A stretch of 64,000 bases of DNA, taken from NCBI GenBank assembly GCA_027491415.1, contig JAOZFH010000025.1, positions 1-64,000 on the forward strand, in the 5' to 3' direction. The position numbers and the translations under genes were made by a program. This DNA comes from Thermoproteota archaeon (lineage in GTDB: Archaea > Korarchaeota > Korarchaeia > Korarchaeales > Korarchaeaceae). The notes under the pieces are model-generated. The model was not told the DNA's origin, did no database searches, and was given only the letters and a program-made list of their open reading frames with translations. Below are positions 10,087-18,249 of the stretch, in pieces. Position 1 is the stretch's first letter. Each line of letters opens with the position of its first letter.

Positions 10087-11514
10087 TCAAGATCGGCTCG
10101 CCACGGTTTCAACGCCGTGTGAGGCGGCCGACCGCGGCTCTCCGAGGAGGCCGGTGAGCATCACCGCCTCCACCCCCTCCACGGCGGCCTCGTCGTAATA
10201 CACCACGTACCCTCCGCTCTCAAGGGGAGCCACGTCTCGAACTACGTAATGAACGAATCCAGAGTGGGCGAGAAAGTTCCTGATGTGGTCGAACGTAAAC
10301 CTCGCCGAGACGGCGTCCTCGAGCAGCCTCGCTGGCTTTGAGTTCTGGCGAGAAGCCACGAGGCGCTCTAACCACGCTCCGAGTTCTCTCTCGGGGTTCC
10401 GACCGAGGGCGCCCGGCCTGAGGAAATCCAGGGATCCCCCGGCCAGAAACCACAGCCGAAATAGCGGCGCCCCCCGCGGGAGCCGCCCGACCCTGCACTC
10501 CACGGCCTTCCTCTCCAGGAGGAAGCTGGCGAGGGTGGAGGGATCTGCGCCTCTTCTCGCTGGCGGAGCCTCGTCCAAGGTACCAGAGACCTCCGAGAGG
10601 AGTAAGTGGTACTGCAGGGCCATCCCCTTCTGCCTGTAGAGCGAGATTAGCTTGCCTATAAGGCCAGAGGGGAGTTCTCCAACCTGGCAGCCGGGGCCCG
10701 GGTTGAGAAGGCCGGAGGCCCTCCGAGCGAACTCACTCACCAGCTGGGGGATGACCTGAGAAGGCAGCTCCTTGATGCCATGCGCCTCACCCTCGACCTC
10801 TGCCCACTCCAGTAGCCTGAGTAGCCTGCACAGGTGGAGGTGAACAATCAGGGGGGATCCCAATGAGATTCCAAGGGAGATAAGCGCGACCTCCCTCAGC
10901 AGGTCCGCGGGGAGGCCTGACTGAAGGTTCTTCGCAGCCTCGATCAGCCTCACCCACAGGGAGGTGAGTTGGGGGTCTTCCAGTACCCTCGCTAGAGTCT
11001 CGGCTATCCTAGCTGTCTCCAAGACGCTCAAAGGTGGCGTATACAACTTCAATGATGTTGGAAGGCCGGGTCTTCGAGCGACCACGGTCAGTCTGCGGCC
11101 GGTCGTCAGGGAGTGCGCCAGCGACCCCAGGAGGGCGGACGAGGTCACCGGATCGAGTCCCCCCCAGGGGACGAGAAAGGTCACGGTCTCCGCCCCCTCG
11201 AGGGATGAAAGAGCGGAGACCGTTGCGGCGAACGCCCGCTCGCCGAGTTCCTCCGGGGTCAACCTCTCGGCGCCCTCCAGGGGCACCTCGACTATCCGGA
11301 GAGCCGAGTTGGAGGTGGCCACTCGGCTAAAGACCTCCCGTTCCGGCCCCGTCGGAATAAGCACCACCAGGATCGTCTCACCCTCAACGCTGGCGAGATT
11401 ATCGAGCCCGGAGAGGGCCCACTCCAGCGCCTCCAAGACCGAAGCTAGTCCACCCACTTCATTCGGAGGCGCGCACACGGGCAGCAGGGCGGCGGAGGGC
11501 AAATCGAGATTCAC
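10087..11514 (-). CDS. Csx1-like CARF-HEPN protein
   Basis: The 475-aa protein has an N-terminal alpha/beta region matching a CARF sensor (ALLPVCAPPN, then VTFLVPWGGLDPVTSSALL). A helical middle is followed by a C-terminal HEPN domain carrying RNFLAH, the R-x4-H ribonuclease signature, in the RNFxAHxG context seen in Csx1. In type III CRISPR systems such proteins bind cyclic oligoadenylate made by Cas10 and then cut RNA. GTG 11514 overlaps the upstream TGA (GTGA), so it is translationally coupled to the CARF-winged-helix gene. No cas10 or repeat array is in the window, so its activator must be encoded elsewhere. Confidence 0.8.
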   Translation of the reverse strand: MNLDLPSAALLPVCAPPNEVGGLASVLEALEWALSGLDNLASVEGETILVVLIPTGPEREVFSRVATSNSALRIVEVPLEGAERLTPEELGERAFAATVSALSSLEGAETVTFLVPWGGLDPVTSSALLGSLAHSLTTGRRLTVVARRPGLPTSLKLYTPPLSVLETARIAETLARVLEDPQLTSLWVRLIEAAKNLQSGLPADLLREVALISLGISLGSPLIVHLHLCRLLRLLEWAEVEGEAHGIKELPSQVIPQLVSEFARRASGLLNPGPGCQVGELPSGLIGKLISLYRQKGMALQYHLLLSEVSGTLDEAPPARRGADPSTLASFLLERKAVECRVGRLPRGAPLFRLWFLAGGSLDFLRPGALGRNPERELGAWLERLVASRQNSKPARLLEDAVSARFTFDHIRNFLAHSGFVHYVVRDVAPLESGGYVVYYDEAAVEGVEAVMLTGLLGEPRSAASHGVETVASRS

Positions 11515-12248
11515 CCCCAATTGAGGACGGGTTCCCCCTGGCTACTCACCCTCCTCAGGGCCAGTATCCCCTCGAGAATGGCCCTTCCGAGGCCGGTTGC
11601 CTTCACGTCTCTGGCGGGGCCGATGTCGACCAGGCCCGCCCTAATCAGCCAGGCGGCCAGCTCTCCATCGACTCGGTCATATCTCCCGGAGAGGACTCTC
11701 TCAACACTCTCGAGGATGGTCGGAGGCACAGGAAGGATGGGGAGCTTGTGGACCTCGTGGTCATCTCTCTCGGGCCAGAAGATCTCCCTAAGGATGGGGT
11801 CCTCCACCTTGTCCTGGGAGGAGAGTGCCTTCCTCCACCTTTCGAGACTCCTCCCTGAAGCCTTCATCGATACCGCGTAGACGCCCTCAAGCGGAACCAG
11901 CTGGGCTATCGACGTCAGCAGGGCTGCCAGCTCAGGAGTTGAGCAGGATACCAGCACGCTCACTAGGTCAGGGTTGACGGCCCCCAGGGCCTCACAGATG
12001 ATCTCCAGCCACAATTCCGTCGGACCGCGGAGTTCTACTCCCTCGACCTCCACCCACCTGTACTTCTGGCTGAATGACCTCTCCAAGACCTGCCGGACCC
12101 AGTCATACCCGGGCGGGACCGCAAGCAGCACCATCTCCGGGGTCGACTCGCTCCTAGAGAGGTGCTCGTAAACCCTGGTGACGATCCACGGCTCGCCGCA
12201 GGCGGGAGATAAAAGCACTCTGGTGGCCCCTTTGGCCCGGAAGGGCAT
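11511..12248 (-). CDS. CARF-domain protein with a degenerate winged helix (Csa3-like)
   Basis: The 245-aa protein shows a Rossmann-like CARF layout: strand RVLLSPACGEP, MVLLAVPPGYDWV, then LVSVLVSCSTPELAALL at the place of the ligand-binding glycine/threonine loop, and the closing strand LPILPVPP. A short winged-helix-like tail follows (ILESVERVLSG to LGRAILEGI). This is the Csa3 architecture, a cyclic-oligonucleotide-responsive transcription factor. The loop has Cys-Ser-Thr instead of the usual Gly residues, and the helix-turn-helix is poorly conserved. It is the first gene of the operon, with CCATTAAG at 12273-12280 as TATA box. Confidence 0.6.
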   Translation of the reverse strand: MPFRAKGATRVLLSPACGEPWIVTRVYEHLSRSESTPEMVLLAVPPGYDWVRQVLERSFSQKYRWVEVEGVELRGPTELWLEIICEALGAVNPDLVSVLVSCSTPELAALLTSIAQLVPLEGVYAVSMKASGRSLERWRKALSSQDKVEDPILREIFWPERDDHEVHKLPILPVPPTILESVERVLSGRYDRVDGELAAWLIRAGLVDIGPARDVKATGLGRAILEGILALRRVSSQGEPVLNWG

Positions 12249-12272
12249 CGCCTAGGCCTTTCAGAGGCGGGT

Positions 12273-12280
12273 CTTAATGG
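12273..12280 (-). promoter_or_regulatory. TATA box of the CARF/HEPN operon
   Basis: CCATTAAG (minus strand) lies 25-32 bp upstream of the ATG at 12248, consistent with a leaderless transcript covering both CARF genes. Confidence 0.45.
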
Positions 12281-12442
12281 TGATGGGGGGAAATTTCCAA
12301 ATAAAACGTAAAAACAGAAAATTCGTCTTGTAAGAGCATTCAAACTAGCCTACGCCAGCACAAGGCCAGCTTACGTCAGGGGAGCCCTCTCGCTCATCAG
12401 CTTATTAAGGAAGTTGACCAAAAACTCATCCAGGAGCGTCCG

Positions 12443-12631
12443 GTGGCACAGGAGTTGGGATTCCGGGACCCTGCATGGCGACCACCTGAGAGCCTAGTAT
12501 CTATTCTCGGGGAAAGAATGTCATTGGACAAATCAGCAAAGCTCGACAGGATCTACTACAAGACCTGGGGGTTTCTGTTTGGCGTGAATCCAATGACGGC
12601 TAGCCAAAATTTGGAGGGGCGTAACAGATGA
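12443..12631 (+). CDS. Small uncharacterised protein coupled to the tandem-HTH gene
   Basis: The 62-aa frame (GTG start) ends in ATGA, overlapping the start of the next gene by 4 bp, which argues that it is translated. The sequence is charged and has no recognised domain; FLFGVNPMTASQ near the end is the most distinctive part. The same frame stays open upstream for more than 100 bp without a standard start, so the N-terminus could be longer if a rare codon is used. Its base composition is A/T-richer than the flanking genes, like its partner. Function is unknown; it might be an antitoxin-like or regulatory partner, but I have no direct evidence. Confidence 0.4.
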   Translation: MAQELGFRDPAWRPPESLVSILGERMSLDKSAKLDRIYYKTWGFLFGVNPMTASQNLEGRNR

Positions 12632-14214
12632 TCGAACTGAGTGATGCCGACAATCTTGAGAAAGCTTTCGCGTTAGCCATCGAGAAGGCTTCTAATGAGA
12701 TGGATCTCTCGCCTGTTCGGCCTATCCCTCAAAAGATTGTGTTAGAGGACTTTCCAATCCTCAACGGCTACAGGGCCGGGGTTCTCGCCTCTAAAGATAA
12801 GCTCATATTAAGTTCAAGACTTAACGTAAAGAGATTAAGATCAGTAATAGCAAGAGAGGCGTTTAATTTGCTTATACCAGAGAATCTCGATCGGCTTAGG
12901 GTGATTTATGACCTCGCTTGGGCCTATTCTGGGGCAGAGCTCAGCTGGTGGAAAGAGTGCAGCCAGGTAATCTGGGACCCTCGATTCCCTCTATACAACG
13001 CACCTGAAGTGCTCTCCCCTCTACCAAGGAAGAGGCTGGTTATGGTCCTCCGGCGGATGCTCCACCTCTTGCGGGGGTTAAATGATGTCGGCCGTAGAGT
13101 CACGCTCGAAGAATACCTTTCCATATTTAGCGAGGCAGCCGGGCTTCTTGAGCCAGTTAGACTTTCCAAGGTTCAGATCAAGGTGATCGAGGAACTCGCT
13201 AGGAGCCCGTATCTCACACAAGGAGAGTTGGCCAGAAAGCTTGGATTCTCAAAATCCGCAGTATCAAAAGCTCTATCCAAGCTCACCGCTCTCGGAATAC
13301 TGAGTGGCCCTGAGAACGTTGTACTCGAGCGAATCGGACTGGCCGGACTCTTAGCCATTGTCCCGGACAGCCCGATAATGGAGAAAGCATTCGCCAAATT
13401 TCCATTCACTTATCGGATCTTAAGGCCCATATCGCGGGCTCTGCCATCATTTATCATATTAATTTTTCCCAACGAGGGCCTGACCAGTCTTAGGTTAGTT
13501 CTGAATTCTGGCAGGACCAAGCTCGCTAGGATGCTTAGATTAACGTTCACTCACAAGACTACATCCTTCAACCCGGACTCTGATGTCGAGAAAGCTCTCA
13601 GGCTACTCAGCGAAGGGATTGAGTTCAAAATCCGCGGAGAAAGGGAGGTCGTCGTTCCTAAACTCAATAGACACGATCTGATGATCGTAAATCGCGTTCT
13701 ACGGAAGGGTCGAGTTAGTGTGTCCGTAGTCAGGGCAATGGGAATACCTTCGGCGGAATCAAGGCTCCGAAGGCTCAGGGAGTTGGGCGTCCTAAGAAAG
13801 TTCTACACAGTTGGCGGATATCGACTCGGGAGGCCAATTTCAGTTATGATAAATTCTAAACAGGAAGACTTTCCGAGAATTTCTGCCGCCCTAGGCGCCA
13901 TGTCAACATCTCTATCCGTTTACGTTGAAGGAGACTTCAGTGGAGTTTGGGGCCTACTCCTTACCTCAGATCGCGACGTTCTCAAGCTAATTCAGTCATT
14001 GAGGCTGATCTTTGGGAACCAGTTAGAGAACGCTGCGCCGCTACTAGACTTCTCTCCCTCCTACTGGAGCATTCCGATAGACCTCTGGGACGAACGGGAC
14101 AACCGCTTCAGGTACGAGGCCGCTCTCGAGGAACTCGCCTCACAAATCTTACCCTATCACCCTGGAGACGCTGGAAGACCACCCGGCGACCAGCGCCCTG
14201 ATGAGGTCGACTGA
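12628..14214 (+). CDS. Large tandem-HTH protein, probable transcription regulator
   Basis: The 528-aa protein has a unique N-terminal helical region (about residues 1-170). A MarR-type helix-turn-helix follows (LTQGELARKLGFSKSAVSKALSKL), then a linker domain, a second HTH-like segment (VSVSVVRAMGIPSAESRLRRLRELG) and a C-terminal beta-alpha part. It looks like two HTH-plus-sensor units in tandem. Codon use is clearly more A/T-rich than in neighbours, with many AGG, ATA and TTA codons and AT-rich third positions, so it may be acquired. It probably binds DNA; target and ligand are unknown. The 3' end overlaps the convergent gene by 66 bp. Confidence 0.6.
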   Translation: MIELSDADNLEKAFALAIEKASNEMDLSPVRPIPQKIVLEDFPILNGYRAGVLASKDKLILSSRLNVKRLRSVIAREAFNLLIPENLDRLRVIYDLAWAYSGAELSWWKECSQVIWDPRFPLYNAPEVLSPLPRKRLVMVLRRMLHLLRGLNDVGRRVTLEEYLSIFSEAAGLLEPVRLSKVQIKVIEELARSPYLTQGELARKLGFSKSAVSKALSKLTALGILSGPENVVLERIGLAGLLAIVPDSPIMEKAFAKFPFTYRILRPISRALPSFIILIFPNEGLTSLRLVLNSGRTKLARMLRLTFTHKTTSFNPDSDVEKALRLLSEGIEFKIRGEREVVVPKLNRHDLMIVNRVLRKGRVSVSVVRAMGIPSAESRLRRLRELGVLRKFYTVGGYRLGRPISVMINSKQEDFPRISAALGAMSTSLSVYVEGDFSGVWGLLLTSDRDVLKLIQSLRLIFGNQLENAAPLLDFSPSYWSIPIDLWDERDNRFRYEAALEELASQILPYHPGDAGRPPGDQRPDEVD

Positions 14215-15564
14215 GGTGTTCACCTCGTATATTACAACTCTCCTCCTCCCCGCACCCCTCCTCGGCACGCTCCTCTGGAGTAGCCACCCTGGGGGGCACT
14301 CTCCGCCCAAGAGGGAGTAGAGCTTGCTCTGAGAGATCGACGGTATCAGCCTGGCCAGTTCAGTGGCTGCCAACCCTCTGTGATCCTCCCTGGAGCCAAC
14401 GCTCCTTTTTACCCACCTGATGGCCTCCTCCTGAACCTTCCAGGGAAGGAGCAGGGAGAGAACCTCCACCCCGCGCTCCGGGTCTAGGCCCATGGAGTCG
14501 ACGGCGTGCTTCAGGGCCAGCAGGTCTATGACCGCGAAGCAGTCATCTCCCACCAGTCTGATCGGCTCTGCCACCCCCAGCGGAAGCCCAAGCCTGTACG
14601 CTAGGCTCTTGGCCTTAACGAGTGCCCTCATCTGCTCAGATGTGAGCAGGGACCTCAGTCTCATTAGGAGGGACTTGTAGTGGTCGTCTATCTTCAGGAC
14701 CTCGGCGACCCTGGAATAGGAGGCCATCAGGGGTCGCTCCCTGATGAGGAGCCCCGACCTCCAGAGGTCGGGCGACAGGTGGATTAGCGCTCGAAGGAGG
14801 CCGTCTCCCCCCATGGTCGCAGATGGGTTGGTGAAGGCAACCTCCTGGGCCAGCGCCACGTCGATAGCCAGCTCTAGGTAGGCCCTCATTCTCTTCCGTG
14901 CTCCCTTCCCGGCCCTCCCCGATCTGCCCAGCTGGAAGGTAAGGCCCATCGGGGTGAGAAAGTAGAAGTCTCCCGGCCTAATTCCCCAATCCCTCTTGGA
15001 TCTGGACTCCGCAAACCTCCTGCTGACCTCTCCCTTCATGAGGGGGGCGGACATGGAGTAAAGCAGCTCGGCCGGCAGATCCTCCAGGGGATCGCCCTCT
15101 ATCACGTTGACGAGGGCGTAGGGTCTCGAGAGCATGCCTTGCTCCCGGAGTTCTTCGTTTACGAGTAACTCGATCGACCTAGCCGCGCTCCTCCACGCCC
15201 GCACAAGGTCCTCGGCCTCCATTCTGGGTCCGCCGACGAGCCTCACCCTGACGGAGGTGAATCCCGAGGCGTACCGCCTTATCTCAAGGGTCGGCTTGTC
15301 TTGGAGCCTGAGATCCCTGACCGCCTCCCCTAGGGACGCGCTCCTCCTCTCGACCGAGTAGCCGAGGCATATATCCTCCCCGGCGACCCTTGAGACGCGG
15401 GCAGAGATTCTCCGGAGGAACCGGGGCCCTCTTGGACAGTCTGCCGAACCGGACCAGTCGACTGCGACCCTGGAGAGTGAGAAAGTCGCCCTCTCGATCA
15501 AGCCGCGGCCCCCCAGGTGGGGGGCCGGGCGGGCGGCCGACATCGCGGCCCGGGGGCCTGTCAA
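14149..15564 (-). CDS. Uncharacterised 471-residue protein beside the CARF module
   Basis: I recognise no domain. The protein is soluble and basic, with segments such as YALVNVIEGDPLEDLPAELLYSM, FLTPMGLTFQLGRSGRAGKG, an all-helical middle and a basic C-terminus (RRGAGRRRVVIYEVNT). The later GLAATELARLIPSISQSKLYSLL resembles a helix-turn-helix, so DNA or RNA binding is possible. Candidate starts are TTG 15564, ATG 15543 and TTG 15501. The last would place a very strong GC hairpin (15507-15526) in the leader. A TATA box lies at about 15608-15618. It sits between the CARF genes and central metabolism. Confidence 0.55.
   Translation of the reverse strand: MTGPRAAMSAARPAPHLGGRGLIERATFSLSRVAVDWSGSADCPRGPRFLRRISARVSRVAGEDICLGYSVERRSASLGEAVRDLRLQDKPTLEIRRYASGFTSVRVRLVGGPRMEAEDLVRAWRSAARSIELLVNEELREQGMLSRPYALVNVIEGDPLEDLPAELLYSMSAPLMKGEVSRRFAESRSKRDWGIRPGDFYFLTPMGLTFQLGRSGRAGKGARKRMRAYLELAIDVALAQEVAFTNPSATMGGDGLLRALIHLSPDLWRSGLLIRERPLMASYSRVAEVLKIDDHYKSLLMRLRSLLTSEQMRALVKAKSLAYRLGLPLGVAEPIRLVGDDCFAVIDLLALKHAVDSMGLDPERGVEVLSLLLPWKVQEEAIRWVKRSVGSREDHRGLAATELARLIPSISQSKLYSLLGGECPPGWLLQRSVPRRGAGRRRVVIYEVNTSVDLIRALVAGWSSSVSRVIG
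15507..15526. repeat. GC inverted repeat near the start of the unknown gene
   Basis: An 8-bp perfect stem (GGCCCCCC, loop AGGT, GGGGGGCC) lies just inside or just upstream of the minus-strand gene, depending on which start is used. If TTG 15501 is the start, it would be a stable hairpin in the mRNA leader. Confidence 0.6.
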
Positions 15565-15642: not shown

Positions 15643-16503
15643 TCACATGAACTCCTCGTAAAATCTCTTGATGTCCACCTTGAGTTCACGCCTGACGAGG
15701 GGCTCTCCCATCAGGTGGGGCATCTCGTCGAGGAGCGTGGGCTCCTCGGACCTGTAGAAGATCCCGATCGGGATCCTCTCCCCGTCGGTGAGCTCCTCCT
15801 CTCTGGCCTTCGCTAACGCCGCCTCCCAATCGCTTGGATCATGCCCAGAATCCTCCAGCCTATAGACCCTCTCCCTGTAGTAGGGGTAGGTGTTGTAGAA
15901 GGTGACGCACGGTTGGAGGACGTCTATGAAGGCGAACCCCCTGTGCCTGACTCCCTCCTTGAACAGGTAGGTCAAGTGTTCCACGTCGCCCGCGAATCCC
16001 CTGGCGACGAATGTCGCTCCGAGCGACAGAGCGAACGTGAGCGGATTCATTGGCTTCTCCGGCACGCCGAACGGGGTGGACCTGGTCTTCATTCCCTTCG
16101 GCGTGGTGGGCGTGTACTGTCCCGTTGTGAGCCCGAACACCTTGTTGTTGTGGACCACGTAGAGCAGGTCGACGTTCCTCCTGATCGCGTGCGGCAGGTG
16201 ACCGATCCCGATTGCGTAGGCGTCGCCGTCTCCAGCGAACCCCATGACCTCAAGTTCCGGGTTCGCGATCTTGATCCCGGTGGCCAGGGGTAGGACGCGC
16301 CCGTGAATCGTGTGGAAGCTGTTGACCGCCACGTAGTCCCCCATCTTGCCGTGGCACCCTATCCCCGTCACGACCACCACCCTCTCGGGCTCCAGCCCGA
16401 GCTCCGCTATGGTCCTCTTGAGGGCCATCAGGATGGCGAAGTTTCCGCACCCCGGACACCAGGTGTTCTTCTTGGCCGTTCCGAGCTCAGCCACGCTGAC
16501 CAC
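15643..16503 (-). CDS. 2-oxoacid:ferredoxin oxidoreductase, beta subunit
   Basis: The 286-aa protein is the thiamine-diphosphate-binding subunit. It has WCPGCGNF near the N-terminus, GIGCHGK, and GDGDAYAIG followed by NNKVFGLTTGQ, the Mg-TPP binding motif. With the alpha subunit it oxidatively decarboxylates a 2-oxoacid to acyl-CoA and reduces ferredoxin, in the cytoplasm. Like other two-subunit archaeal enzymes it may accept pyruvate and 2-oxoglutarate. The GTG start follows the alpha stop codon directly, so the two are co-translated. Confidence 0.93.
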   Translation of the reverse strand: MVSVAELGTAKKNTWCPGCGNFAILMALKRTIAELGLEPERVVVVTGIGCHGKMGDYVAVNSFHTIHGRVLPLATGIKIANPELEVMGFAGDGDAYAIGIGHLPHAIRRNVDLLYVVHNNKVFGLTTGQYTPTTPKGMKTRSTPFGVPEKPMNPLTFALSLGATFVARGFAGDVEHLTYLFKEGVRHRGFAFIDVLQPCVTFYNTYPYYRERVYRLEDSGHDPSDWEAALAKAREEELTDGERIPIGIFYRSEEPTLLDEMPHLMGEPLVRRELKVDIKRFYEEFM

Positions 16504-18222
16504 TCACATCACCTCCCTAACGCCCTCCAGGATGTCCTCTGGCGTGAAAGGCCTCCCGTCGTAGCGGAGCACTCGGTGATCCACCTGAATTCCCGTCTCC
16601 ATCCTGAGGAGCTTGGCAAGCTGCCCGGTGGCGTTCTGCTCCACGGTGATTATCCTCTCTGCCCCCCTGAGTTCCGCCACGATCTCCTCGGACGGGAACG
16701 GCCAGAGGTAGATCACCCTGACGGCCCTCACCTCGAGCCCCTCCCCCGCCAGCCTCTCCGTCGCTTCGTACACGGCGCCCCTGGTCGATCCCCAGTGGAG
16801 GAGCACCGTGTCGGCCCCGGGGTCGCCCCAGACCTCTAGGCTCTTCCCCCGGATGGCCTCAGAGATCTCGATCAGCTTCCTCAACCTCTTGTCCTGCATA
16901 CTCCTGGCGTTGTCAGGGTCTTCGCTGGCCCACCCTAGCTCGTTGTGCTCGGAGCTGTTCTGCTTAACGATCGCCCCGCGCGTACCTGGAAGGGCTCTCG
17001 GAGAGATTCCGTCCTCCGTGAAGAGGTACCTCTTGTACTCGCCGGGGCCTCTCCACTCGCTCTCGATGATCTTTCCCCTGTCTATCGTGACGGCTCCCAG
17101 GTCGAACGGCTCCACATCCGTGAAGCTCTCAGTGATGTGCTTGTCGATCAGGAGGATCACCGGGACCTGAAATCTCTCCGCCAGGTTGAAGGCCTCCGCG
17201 GTCAGGTAGAAGGTCTCCTCAACGTCACCCGGCGCGCTCACGATCCTCGGGAACTCGCCCTGAGAGGCGTGGATGGCGAAGAGTAGGTCCGCCTGAGAGG
17301 TGTAGGTTGGGAGGCCTGTGCTCGGGCCAGGCCTCTGGGCGAGGACAACGACGATGGGGGTTTCGGTGGCGCCGGCCTGCCCGAGCGCCTCGACCATGAG
17401 GGAGAACCCTCCCCCCGAGGTCCCCGTCATGGACCTGACCCCTGCGTAGGCGGCCCCGATGACCATGTTTATGGCCGCTATCTCGCTCTCCGCCTGAATC
17501 ACGCCTATATCCGCGTCTCGCTGGATCCTAGCCAGGTAGTGCAGGATCGGGGAGGCCGGGGTCATCGGATACGCCGCATAGAACTTCATACCGGCGGCCA
17601 CCGCCCCGAGGGCGCACGCCTCGGAGCCGCTCACCACGAGCTTCCCCTCGTCTCCCCTGACCTTCAGCTGGACCCCCAGGGTCTCAAAGTTCTCCTTTGC
17701 GTACTCATACCCTCTCTTAGCCGCCTTCTCATTTATCTCGTAGACCTCCTGCTTGAACTGCCTCTTAAAGACCTCGAGAAGAACGTCAAGTTCGTATCCG
17801 AGGAGGTAGACCATGGCCCCCAAGGCGGCCGAGTTCCTGACGATTAGCGGGCCCCCCACCTCCCGCGCCATGGTCCTGAGGGGCATCGGAAGCGGCTTGG
17901 CCGGCCCTATGACCTCAAGATCTTTGACGGAGTCTGAGTCGTAGAGGAGGGCGGAGCCGGTAGTCAGCTCGCCTGCGTGCCTCTCGATCGTGTCTTCGTT
18001 GAGGGCTATGAGCAGGTCGACCCCCCGGCGGGGGGCCCGAACGGGGCGAACGGACACCCTGACCAAGTGGTAGTTGTGCCCGCCGCGGATGAGGGACTGG
18101 TAGTCGAAGACCGAGAAGACGTGAAAGCCCCCCCGGACGAACGTCTTGTCCATCAGGAGGCCTGCCTGCCGGATTCCGTCTCCGGCCTCTCCCCCGATCA
18201 TCACGGTTAGATCTGGGCCCAT
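16504..18222 (-). CDS. 2-oxoacid:ferredoxin oxidoreductase, fused gamma-alpha subunit
   Basis: The 572-aa protein joins an N-terminal gamma domain (GGEAGDGIRQAG, then GGHNYHLVRVS) to the alpha domain (GSEACALGAVAAG, YAAYPMTPASPIL, and a late GSTRGAVYEA). Its YPMTPASP segment resembles the YPITPSSx motif of fused subunits from aerobic and anaerobic archaea. It supplies the CoA and substrate-side part of the enzyme. ATG 18222 is preferred because a T-rich TATA element lies at 18250-18258. It forms an operon with the beta subunit. Confidence 0.92.
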   Translation of the reverse strand: MGPDLTVMIGGEAGDGIRQAGLLMDKTFVRGGFHVFSVFDYQSLIRGGHNYHLVRVSVRPVRAPRRGVDLLIALNEDTIERHAGELTTGSALLYDSDSVKDLEVIGPAKPLPMPLRTMAREVGGPLIVRNSAALGAMVYLLGYELDVLLEVFKRQFKQEVYEINEKAAKRGYEYAKENFETLGVQLKVRGDEGKLVVSGSEACALGAVAAGMKFYAAYPMTPASPILHYLARIQRDADIGVIQAESEIAAINMVIGAAYAGVRSMTGTSGGGFSLMVEALGQAGATETPIVVVLAQRPGPSTGLPTYTSQADLLFAIHASQGEFPRIVSAPGDVEETFYLTAEAFNLAERFQVPVILLIDKHITESFTDVEPFDLGAVTIDRGKIIESEWRGPGEYKRYLFTEDGISPRALPGTRGAIVKQNSSEHNELGWASEDPDNARSMQDKRLRKLIEISEAIRGKSLEVWGDPGADTVLLHWGSTRGAVYEATERLAGEGLEVRAVRVIYLWPFPSEEIVAELRGAERIITVEQNATGQLAKLLRMETGIQVDHRVLRYDGRPFTPEDILEGVREVM

Positions 18223-18249
18223 GAGCGCTCGGGGCCGCCCCTTCAAAAA

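Follow-up and report, generated by a model that had tools for sequence, protein, structure and literature searches.

A conserved pair of Csx1-type and Csx14/Crn1-like genes with altered cyclic-oligoadenylate motifs at a Korarchaeal site away from CRISPR loci

Results

Organization and conservation of the gene pair

The window analyzed here, 64,000 nucleotides of contig C6 in the draft genome of a Korarchaeal archaeon, harbors two adjacent genes whose products are designated P0002 and P0001 (Table 1). The two open reading frames and the GTGA overlap between them that were described in the initial annotation are intact, and the overlap also is present in JAOZFN01 (Thermoproteota archaeon INS_M12_B43; here G003), the second genome of this genus that the analysis covered. 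The pair is syntenic in G003 with identical gene order and flanking genes. P0001 and P0002 are 64% and 60% identical, respectively, to their G003 orthologues with dN/dS values of 0.23 and 0.21 (NG86). In the same comparison, identity was 57–83% for three secreted-protein genes on one side of the pair, 73% for HTH528, 83% for T471, and 94–95% for the oxidoreductase genes beyond. The synteny, levels of identity, dN/dS ratios, and the profile matches to Csx1 proteins only that are described below argue that the pair is not a chance arrangement. P0001 and P0002 are maintained, fairly fast-evolving genes under purifying selection. Only the host and G003 carry the pair: a single-protein search found it nowhere except G003, a GTDB-wide scan retrieved G003 and no further genome, and viral, plasmid, and phage searches for the pair were empty.

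The divergent intergenic region at 12249–12627 includes conserved blocks, namely a TTAATAAG-like element, a block of ~65 bp that is >80% identical, and, in the window, a GGAAATTTCC palindrome. These blocks could be promoters or an operator for P0002. Scanning the window for Rfam families and tRNA genes gave no matches.

Table 1. Positions in the window of the gene pair, its sequence motifs and the adjoining genes
Feature	Position	Strand	Description
P0001	10087..11514	-	475 aa with GTG as the likely start (477 aa when read from TTG, 11520); diverged Csx1-type protein, predicted CARF-linker-HEPN
P0001 HEPN catalytic motif	10264..10281	-	R414-N-F-L-A-H419
P0001 CARF motif II position	11149..11175	-	residues 116-124, LVPWGGLDP; [DE]x[ST]xGxN in Csx1 proteins
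Stop-start overlap	11511..11514	-	GTGA coupling P0002 to P0001 (GTG 11514-11512, TGA 11513-11511)
P0002	11511..12248	-	245 aa; CARF5 (Csx14/Crn1-like) protein, C-terminal winged helix
P0002 predicted winged helix	11529..11723	-	residues 176-240; helix-helix-strand-strand-helix over 176-236; pLDDT ~70 (AlphaFold, residues 181-230)
P0002 motif II	11934..11948	-	residues 101-105, SCSTP in place of SGGRK
P0002 motif I	12186..12200	-	residues 17-21, CGEPW in place of GLSPP
HTH528	12628..14214	+	HTH protein of recurring Korarchaeal gene pair; unit membership uncertain
T471	14149..15564	-	partner gene of HTH528; unit membership uncertain

Relationship of P0001 to Csx1-type RNases

Neither P0001 nor P0002 matched Pfam. 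The matches of P0001 in NCBIfam and PADLOC were sub-threshold and mostly Csx1-like at the HEPN end (a weak HEPN match in NCBIfam), and the score with the Csx1 profile TIGR01897 was far under the cut-off (14.4 vs. 110 bits). When compared by hhalign with a set of Korarchaeal Csx1 proteins, residues 201–477 of P0001 matched over 235 columns (E 1.1e-8, score 66.8), and the whole protein matched across residues 27–458 with a score of 78.4 (E 1.1e-9), compared with scores of 34.0 or less for shuffled sequences made from whole P0001. When 29 genomes were searched with a profile built from P0001 and the G003 orthologue, the only other sequences recovered at E values up to ~0.05 were HEPN ends of Csx1 genes; these matches were in G014, G015, G018, and G011 (E 5e-4 to 0.05).

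The RNFLAH sequence of P0001 that had been highlighted as an R-x4-H motif is identical in the G003 orthologue and conforms to R-N-x-x-A-H, the usual form in related Csx1 proteins. The C-terminal domain thereby combines homology to Csx1 with the R-x4-6-H signature of the Csx1 HEPN domain. As the HEPN half matches Csx1 by profile and the motif is conserved, coincidental occurrence of the motif is ruled out. The linker-HEPN part (residues 286–435) is 70–97% identical to the orthologue. P0001 shares with Csx1 proteins (TIGR01897), such as SisCsx1, a predicted N-terminal Rossmann-type domain, a helical linker, and a C-terminal HEPN domain in which R-N-x-x-A-H is followed by a beta hairpin, with homology in the C-terminal half at E ~1e-8.

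Of the CARF and HEPN domains originally attributed to P0001, the latter thus was upheld by profile comparison, but the CARF domain was not significant by sequence when the N-terminal 200 residues were considered alone (hhalign P 0.026–0.05). A PADLOC CARF3 profile matched P0001 with an E value of 0.005. AlphaFold predicted alternating beta and alpha elements with five strands in the N-terminus at low confidence (pLDDT 43–64), and this predicted Rossmann topology together with the domain order suggests that a CARF domain may be present. The AlphaFold models derived from two sequences were poor overall (pLDDT 42 for P0001 and 49 for P0002). A fold search with the P0001 model returned generic Rossmann proteins only, and the two-sequence profiles of P0001 and P0002 retrieved only unrelated chance matches when searched against PDB sequences. 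Judged by its sequence relationships, P0001 is a diverged Csx1-type protein in which the RNase site residues are intact.

P0002 is most similar to CARF5 proteins

P0002 had been assigned a Csa3-like layout. The protein does resemble Csa3/CasR (CARF3 plus winged helix) in having a CARF-type domain and, C-terminal to it, a winged helix, but no Csa3, CasR, or CARF3 match was obtained up to an E value of 1. Instead, the best family was PADLOC CARF5 (E 1.1e-10), and P0002 aligned with Korarchaeal CARF5 proteins across its full length (hhalign E 3.4e-14, 214 columns), including the winged helix, whose counterpart in the alignment is the C-terminal end of the CARF5 proteins. The Korarchaeal CARF5 proteins match Csx14 (TIGR03642) just under the cut-off and Crn1 more weakly, and their profile matches the ring nuclease Sso2081 in the PDB (E 1e-14). 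Csx14 is counted within the Crn1 family in a published survey of ring nucleases (PMC12409355). Among Csx14/Crn1 (CARF5) proteins, which include Sso2081 and Sso1393, the last likewise has a winged helix. In a fold search with the P0002 model, Cad1, Sso1393, and Sso2081 were among the top matches (E 0.004–0.02), mixed with methyltransferases. The Csa3-like description therefore is incorrect. The proposed coupling of a HEPN protein resembling Csx1 with another protein of CARF type was correct.

Replacement of cyclic-oligoadenylate motifs in both proteins

The nine CARF5 relatives all possess GLSPP at motif I and SGGRK at motif II. In contrast, both P0002 orthologues have C-[GS]-E-P-W and SCSTP at these positions. 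P0002 differs from Csx14/Crn1 in the replacement of GLS by CGE and of SGGRK by SCSTP, and so departs from the Crn1 active-site pattern (G-[TL]-S in motif I and GGRK in motif II), lacking the catalytic Ser and the Gly, Arg, and Lys residues of motif II. Thr10, Ser11, and Gly104 of Sso2081 bind phosphate; the ligand and active-site residues of Crn1 include Ser11, Gly104, and the Arg/Lys of motif II; and Sis0455 has an essential, conserved Lys106 in motif II (PMC10018336). As the catalytic residues are lost, cleavage of cA4 by P0002 is predicted to be absent. P0002 is best viewed as a non-canonical member of the Csx14/Crn1 family from which the active-site motifs have been lost.

In Korarchaeal Csx1 proteins, the [DE]x[ST]xGxN sequence of motif II is kept in 35 of 36 sequence records, the exception being a record that has no N-terminus. 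P0001 differs from Csx1 proteins in having LVPWGGLD at the corresponding position, as mapped by a weak local alignment, and in being encoded away from cas genes. The G003 orthologue has LIPWGGPD. The cA4 contacts of SisCsx1 are made by T154, H155, G156, and N158, and the H155D/N158D change abolishes activation (PMC6754442). Few parts of the two proteins are conserved as well as the altered motif II blocks, with 93% identity between orthologues across residues 91–120 of P0002 and ~80% across residues 91–150 of P0001. This conservation is more in keeping with a changed site than with decay. Loss of the motifs does not prove loss of cyclic-oligoadenylate (cOA) binding, as CARF pockets vary.

CRISPR loci in the genomes that carry the pair

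No repeat array and no cas gene were found in the window, and the matches to cas10, cas1, and TIGR01897 (Csx1) in the host assembly were all on contigs other than C6. The absence of cas genes and direct repeats from the 64 kb noted initially was therefore confirmed, and the description of the pair as an operon without CRISPR is accurate locally. It does not extend to the genome, in which type III-B genes and arrays are present, and the apparent puzzle of a CRISPR-free genome was dispelled by searches of the assembly that detected cas10 and arrays. The host assembly, which was examined by searches and in chosen stretches, contains 59 CRISPR repeat copies on five contigs. Contig C62 encodes a Cas10 with GGDD, the 5′ end of the gene being cut by the contig end, accompanied by cmr3, cas6, cas4, cas1, cas2, and an array. 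Contig C63 has an array of its own together with a CARF7 protein and another Csx1. In this draft genome, the pair on C6 thus is on a different contig from the type III-B genes, and not in or beside a type III locus as assembled. A PF03787 search of the assembly detected no Cmr4/Cmr6-type genes; as the end of C62 truncates cas10, these genes may lie in a gap. The type III-B Csx1 gene on C62 is split by a frameshift, or by a sequencing error, with its HEPN motif RNMMAH intact (L005 3353–4048, 3787–5487). Spacers of the host genome gave no convincing match to the window.

G003 possesses a complete III-B locus, including a Cas10 with HD and GGDD, and two Csa3-type CARF proteins; no Csx1-family match was found in this genome other than the P0001 orthologue. 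This III-B set and the two Csa3-type regulators are located at L130 and L071 (G003:C1), where very large CRISPR arrays and a set of type I genes also are present. Both pair-carrying genomes thus encode a GGDD Cas10 on other contigs, and the suggestion that the pair answers a Cas10 elsewhere is viable.

CARF5 and Csx1 genes adjoin at three loci of related genomes (L020, L021, L025), and CARF5 is present alone at two more (L022, L023). The juxtaposition of RNase and CARF5 genes in the window therefore is the same as in type III ancillary pairs of Csx1 and a ring nuclease, from which the window pair differs in having no nearby cas genes or array and in the changes to both pockets. In view of this adjacency, the window pair is a derived form of a known type of ancillary pair.

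Discussion

On balance it is probable that P0001 and P0002 comprise a diverged type III ancillary module that has settled in the chromosome. Its RNase would be active, the partner protein would not be a ring nuclease, and the trigger would have changed. The grounds are the homology of the C-terminal half of P0001 to Csx1 and of the whole of P0002 to Csx14/Crn1, the intact HEPN residues, the loss of canonical cOA motifs from both proteins, the coupling of the genes, the purifying selection on them, and the type III-B genes elsewhere in the genome. A module of a Csx1 RNase and a Crn1/Csx14-type CARF protein would have become a bicistronic unit fixed at a non-CRISPR chromosomal site of the genus. 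P0001 would be a single-strand RNase that functions as a dimer and in which the N-terminal CARF domain switches the HEPN site, and P0002 would be a co-translated regulator or co-sensor, unable to cleave cA4, that might act by CARF-CARF contact, by holding the ligand, or as a repressor of the operon by means of the winged helix. A modified or different signal, not canonical cA4/cA6, would serve as the trigger, and release of the P0001 RNase would cause RNA degradation and a growth stall as with Csx1.

The main rival is that P0001 is an ordinary Csx1 RNase which, with a ring-nuclease-type partner, serves the cell's own III-B Cas10 in trans through cOA pockets that have diverged but remain functional. 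The intact GGDD of Cas10 in both carriers accords with this proposal, as do the adjacent Csx1 and CARF5 genes in related type III loci and the precedent of ring nucleases encoded away from CRISPR loci (PMC8730458). In G003 in particular, P0001 could be the RNase effector of the complete III-B locus, which has no other Csx1-family match to call on, although the two Csa3-type CARF proteins of that genome may also read cOA. The CRISPR loci of the host already include two further Csx1 genes and a CARF7 protein, and the cA4-contact motifs that relatives keep are replaced in both P0001 and P0002. In-trans cOA signaling is therefore considered possible but rather unlikely. Replacement of these motifs in both proteins lends weight to the possibility that the pair answers a different nucleotide signal.

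Alternatively, P0001 may be a HEPN toxin and P0002 an antitoxin-like partner that holds it inactive by direct contact and/or represses the operon through the winged helix, with no nucleotide ligand involved. Translational coupling with the regulator gene first, the winged helix itself, and the loss of ligand motifs from both proteins would suit such an arrangement. Nevertheless, both proteins keep the sensor-domain part, the high conservation of their altered motif II sequences suggests that a binding site has been kept, and the pair is absent from the plasmids, phages, and viral contigs searched, which together make a toxin-antitoxin role decidedly improbable. The CRISPR-free site and lost motifs also could denote a functionless, decaying remnant of a lost CRISPR locus, but both genes are intact in two species at 60–64% identity and dN/dS ~0.2 with identical HEPN residues and the gene order kept; this explanation appears largely refuted already and retains very little probability.

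The unusual aspect of the pair is the joint loss of both pockets, and not the absence of CRISPR: an RNase effector and a ring-nuclease relative have both lost the canonical pocket, whereas the HEPN site and the altered blocks stay conserved. CARF homologues are abundant outside CRISPR loci (PMC12669027), and the pair offers a direct test case for the movement of CARF-HEPN switches to other signals. It is conceivable, albeit unlikely, that P0001 joins with P0002 in a mixed CARF complex which reads a ligand outside the cA3-cA6 range and frees the RNase without Cas10, as a switch uncoupled from CRISPR. If so, the pair would be a CARF-HEPN stress or immune switch independent of CRISPR.

Genes adjoining the pair

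HTH528 and T471 constitute a near-obligate Korarchaeal gene pair (window, L135, L136, L137): an HTH528 gene is located within 5 kb of 19 of the 21 T genes, with several copies per genome. In G011 and G013, the HTH528-T471 pair adjoins Csx1 and cmr/cas10 genes (two type III-B loci). Three cases near type III loci were observed against 0.53 expected (P 0.017), which is only suggestive of a tie between the CARF pair and type III loci through HTH528-T471. Further along, two 2-oxoacid oxidoreductase genes at 15643–18246 have unusually low dS values relative to G003 (0.36 and 0.12 by NG86) compared to other nearby genes (0.55–1.4), which may reflect codon bias or recent gene exchange.
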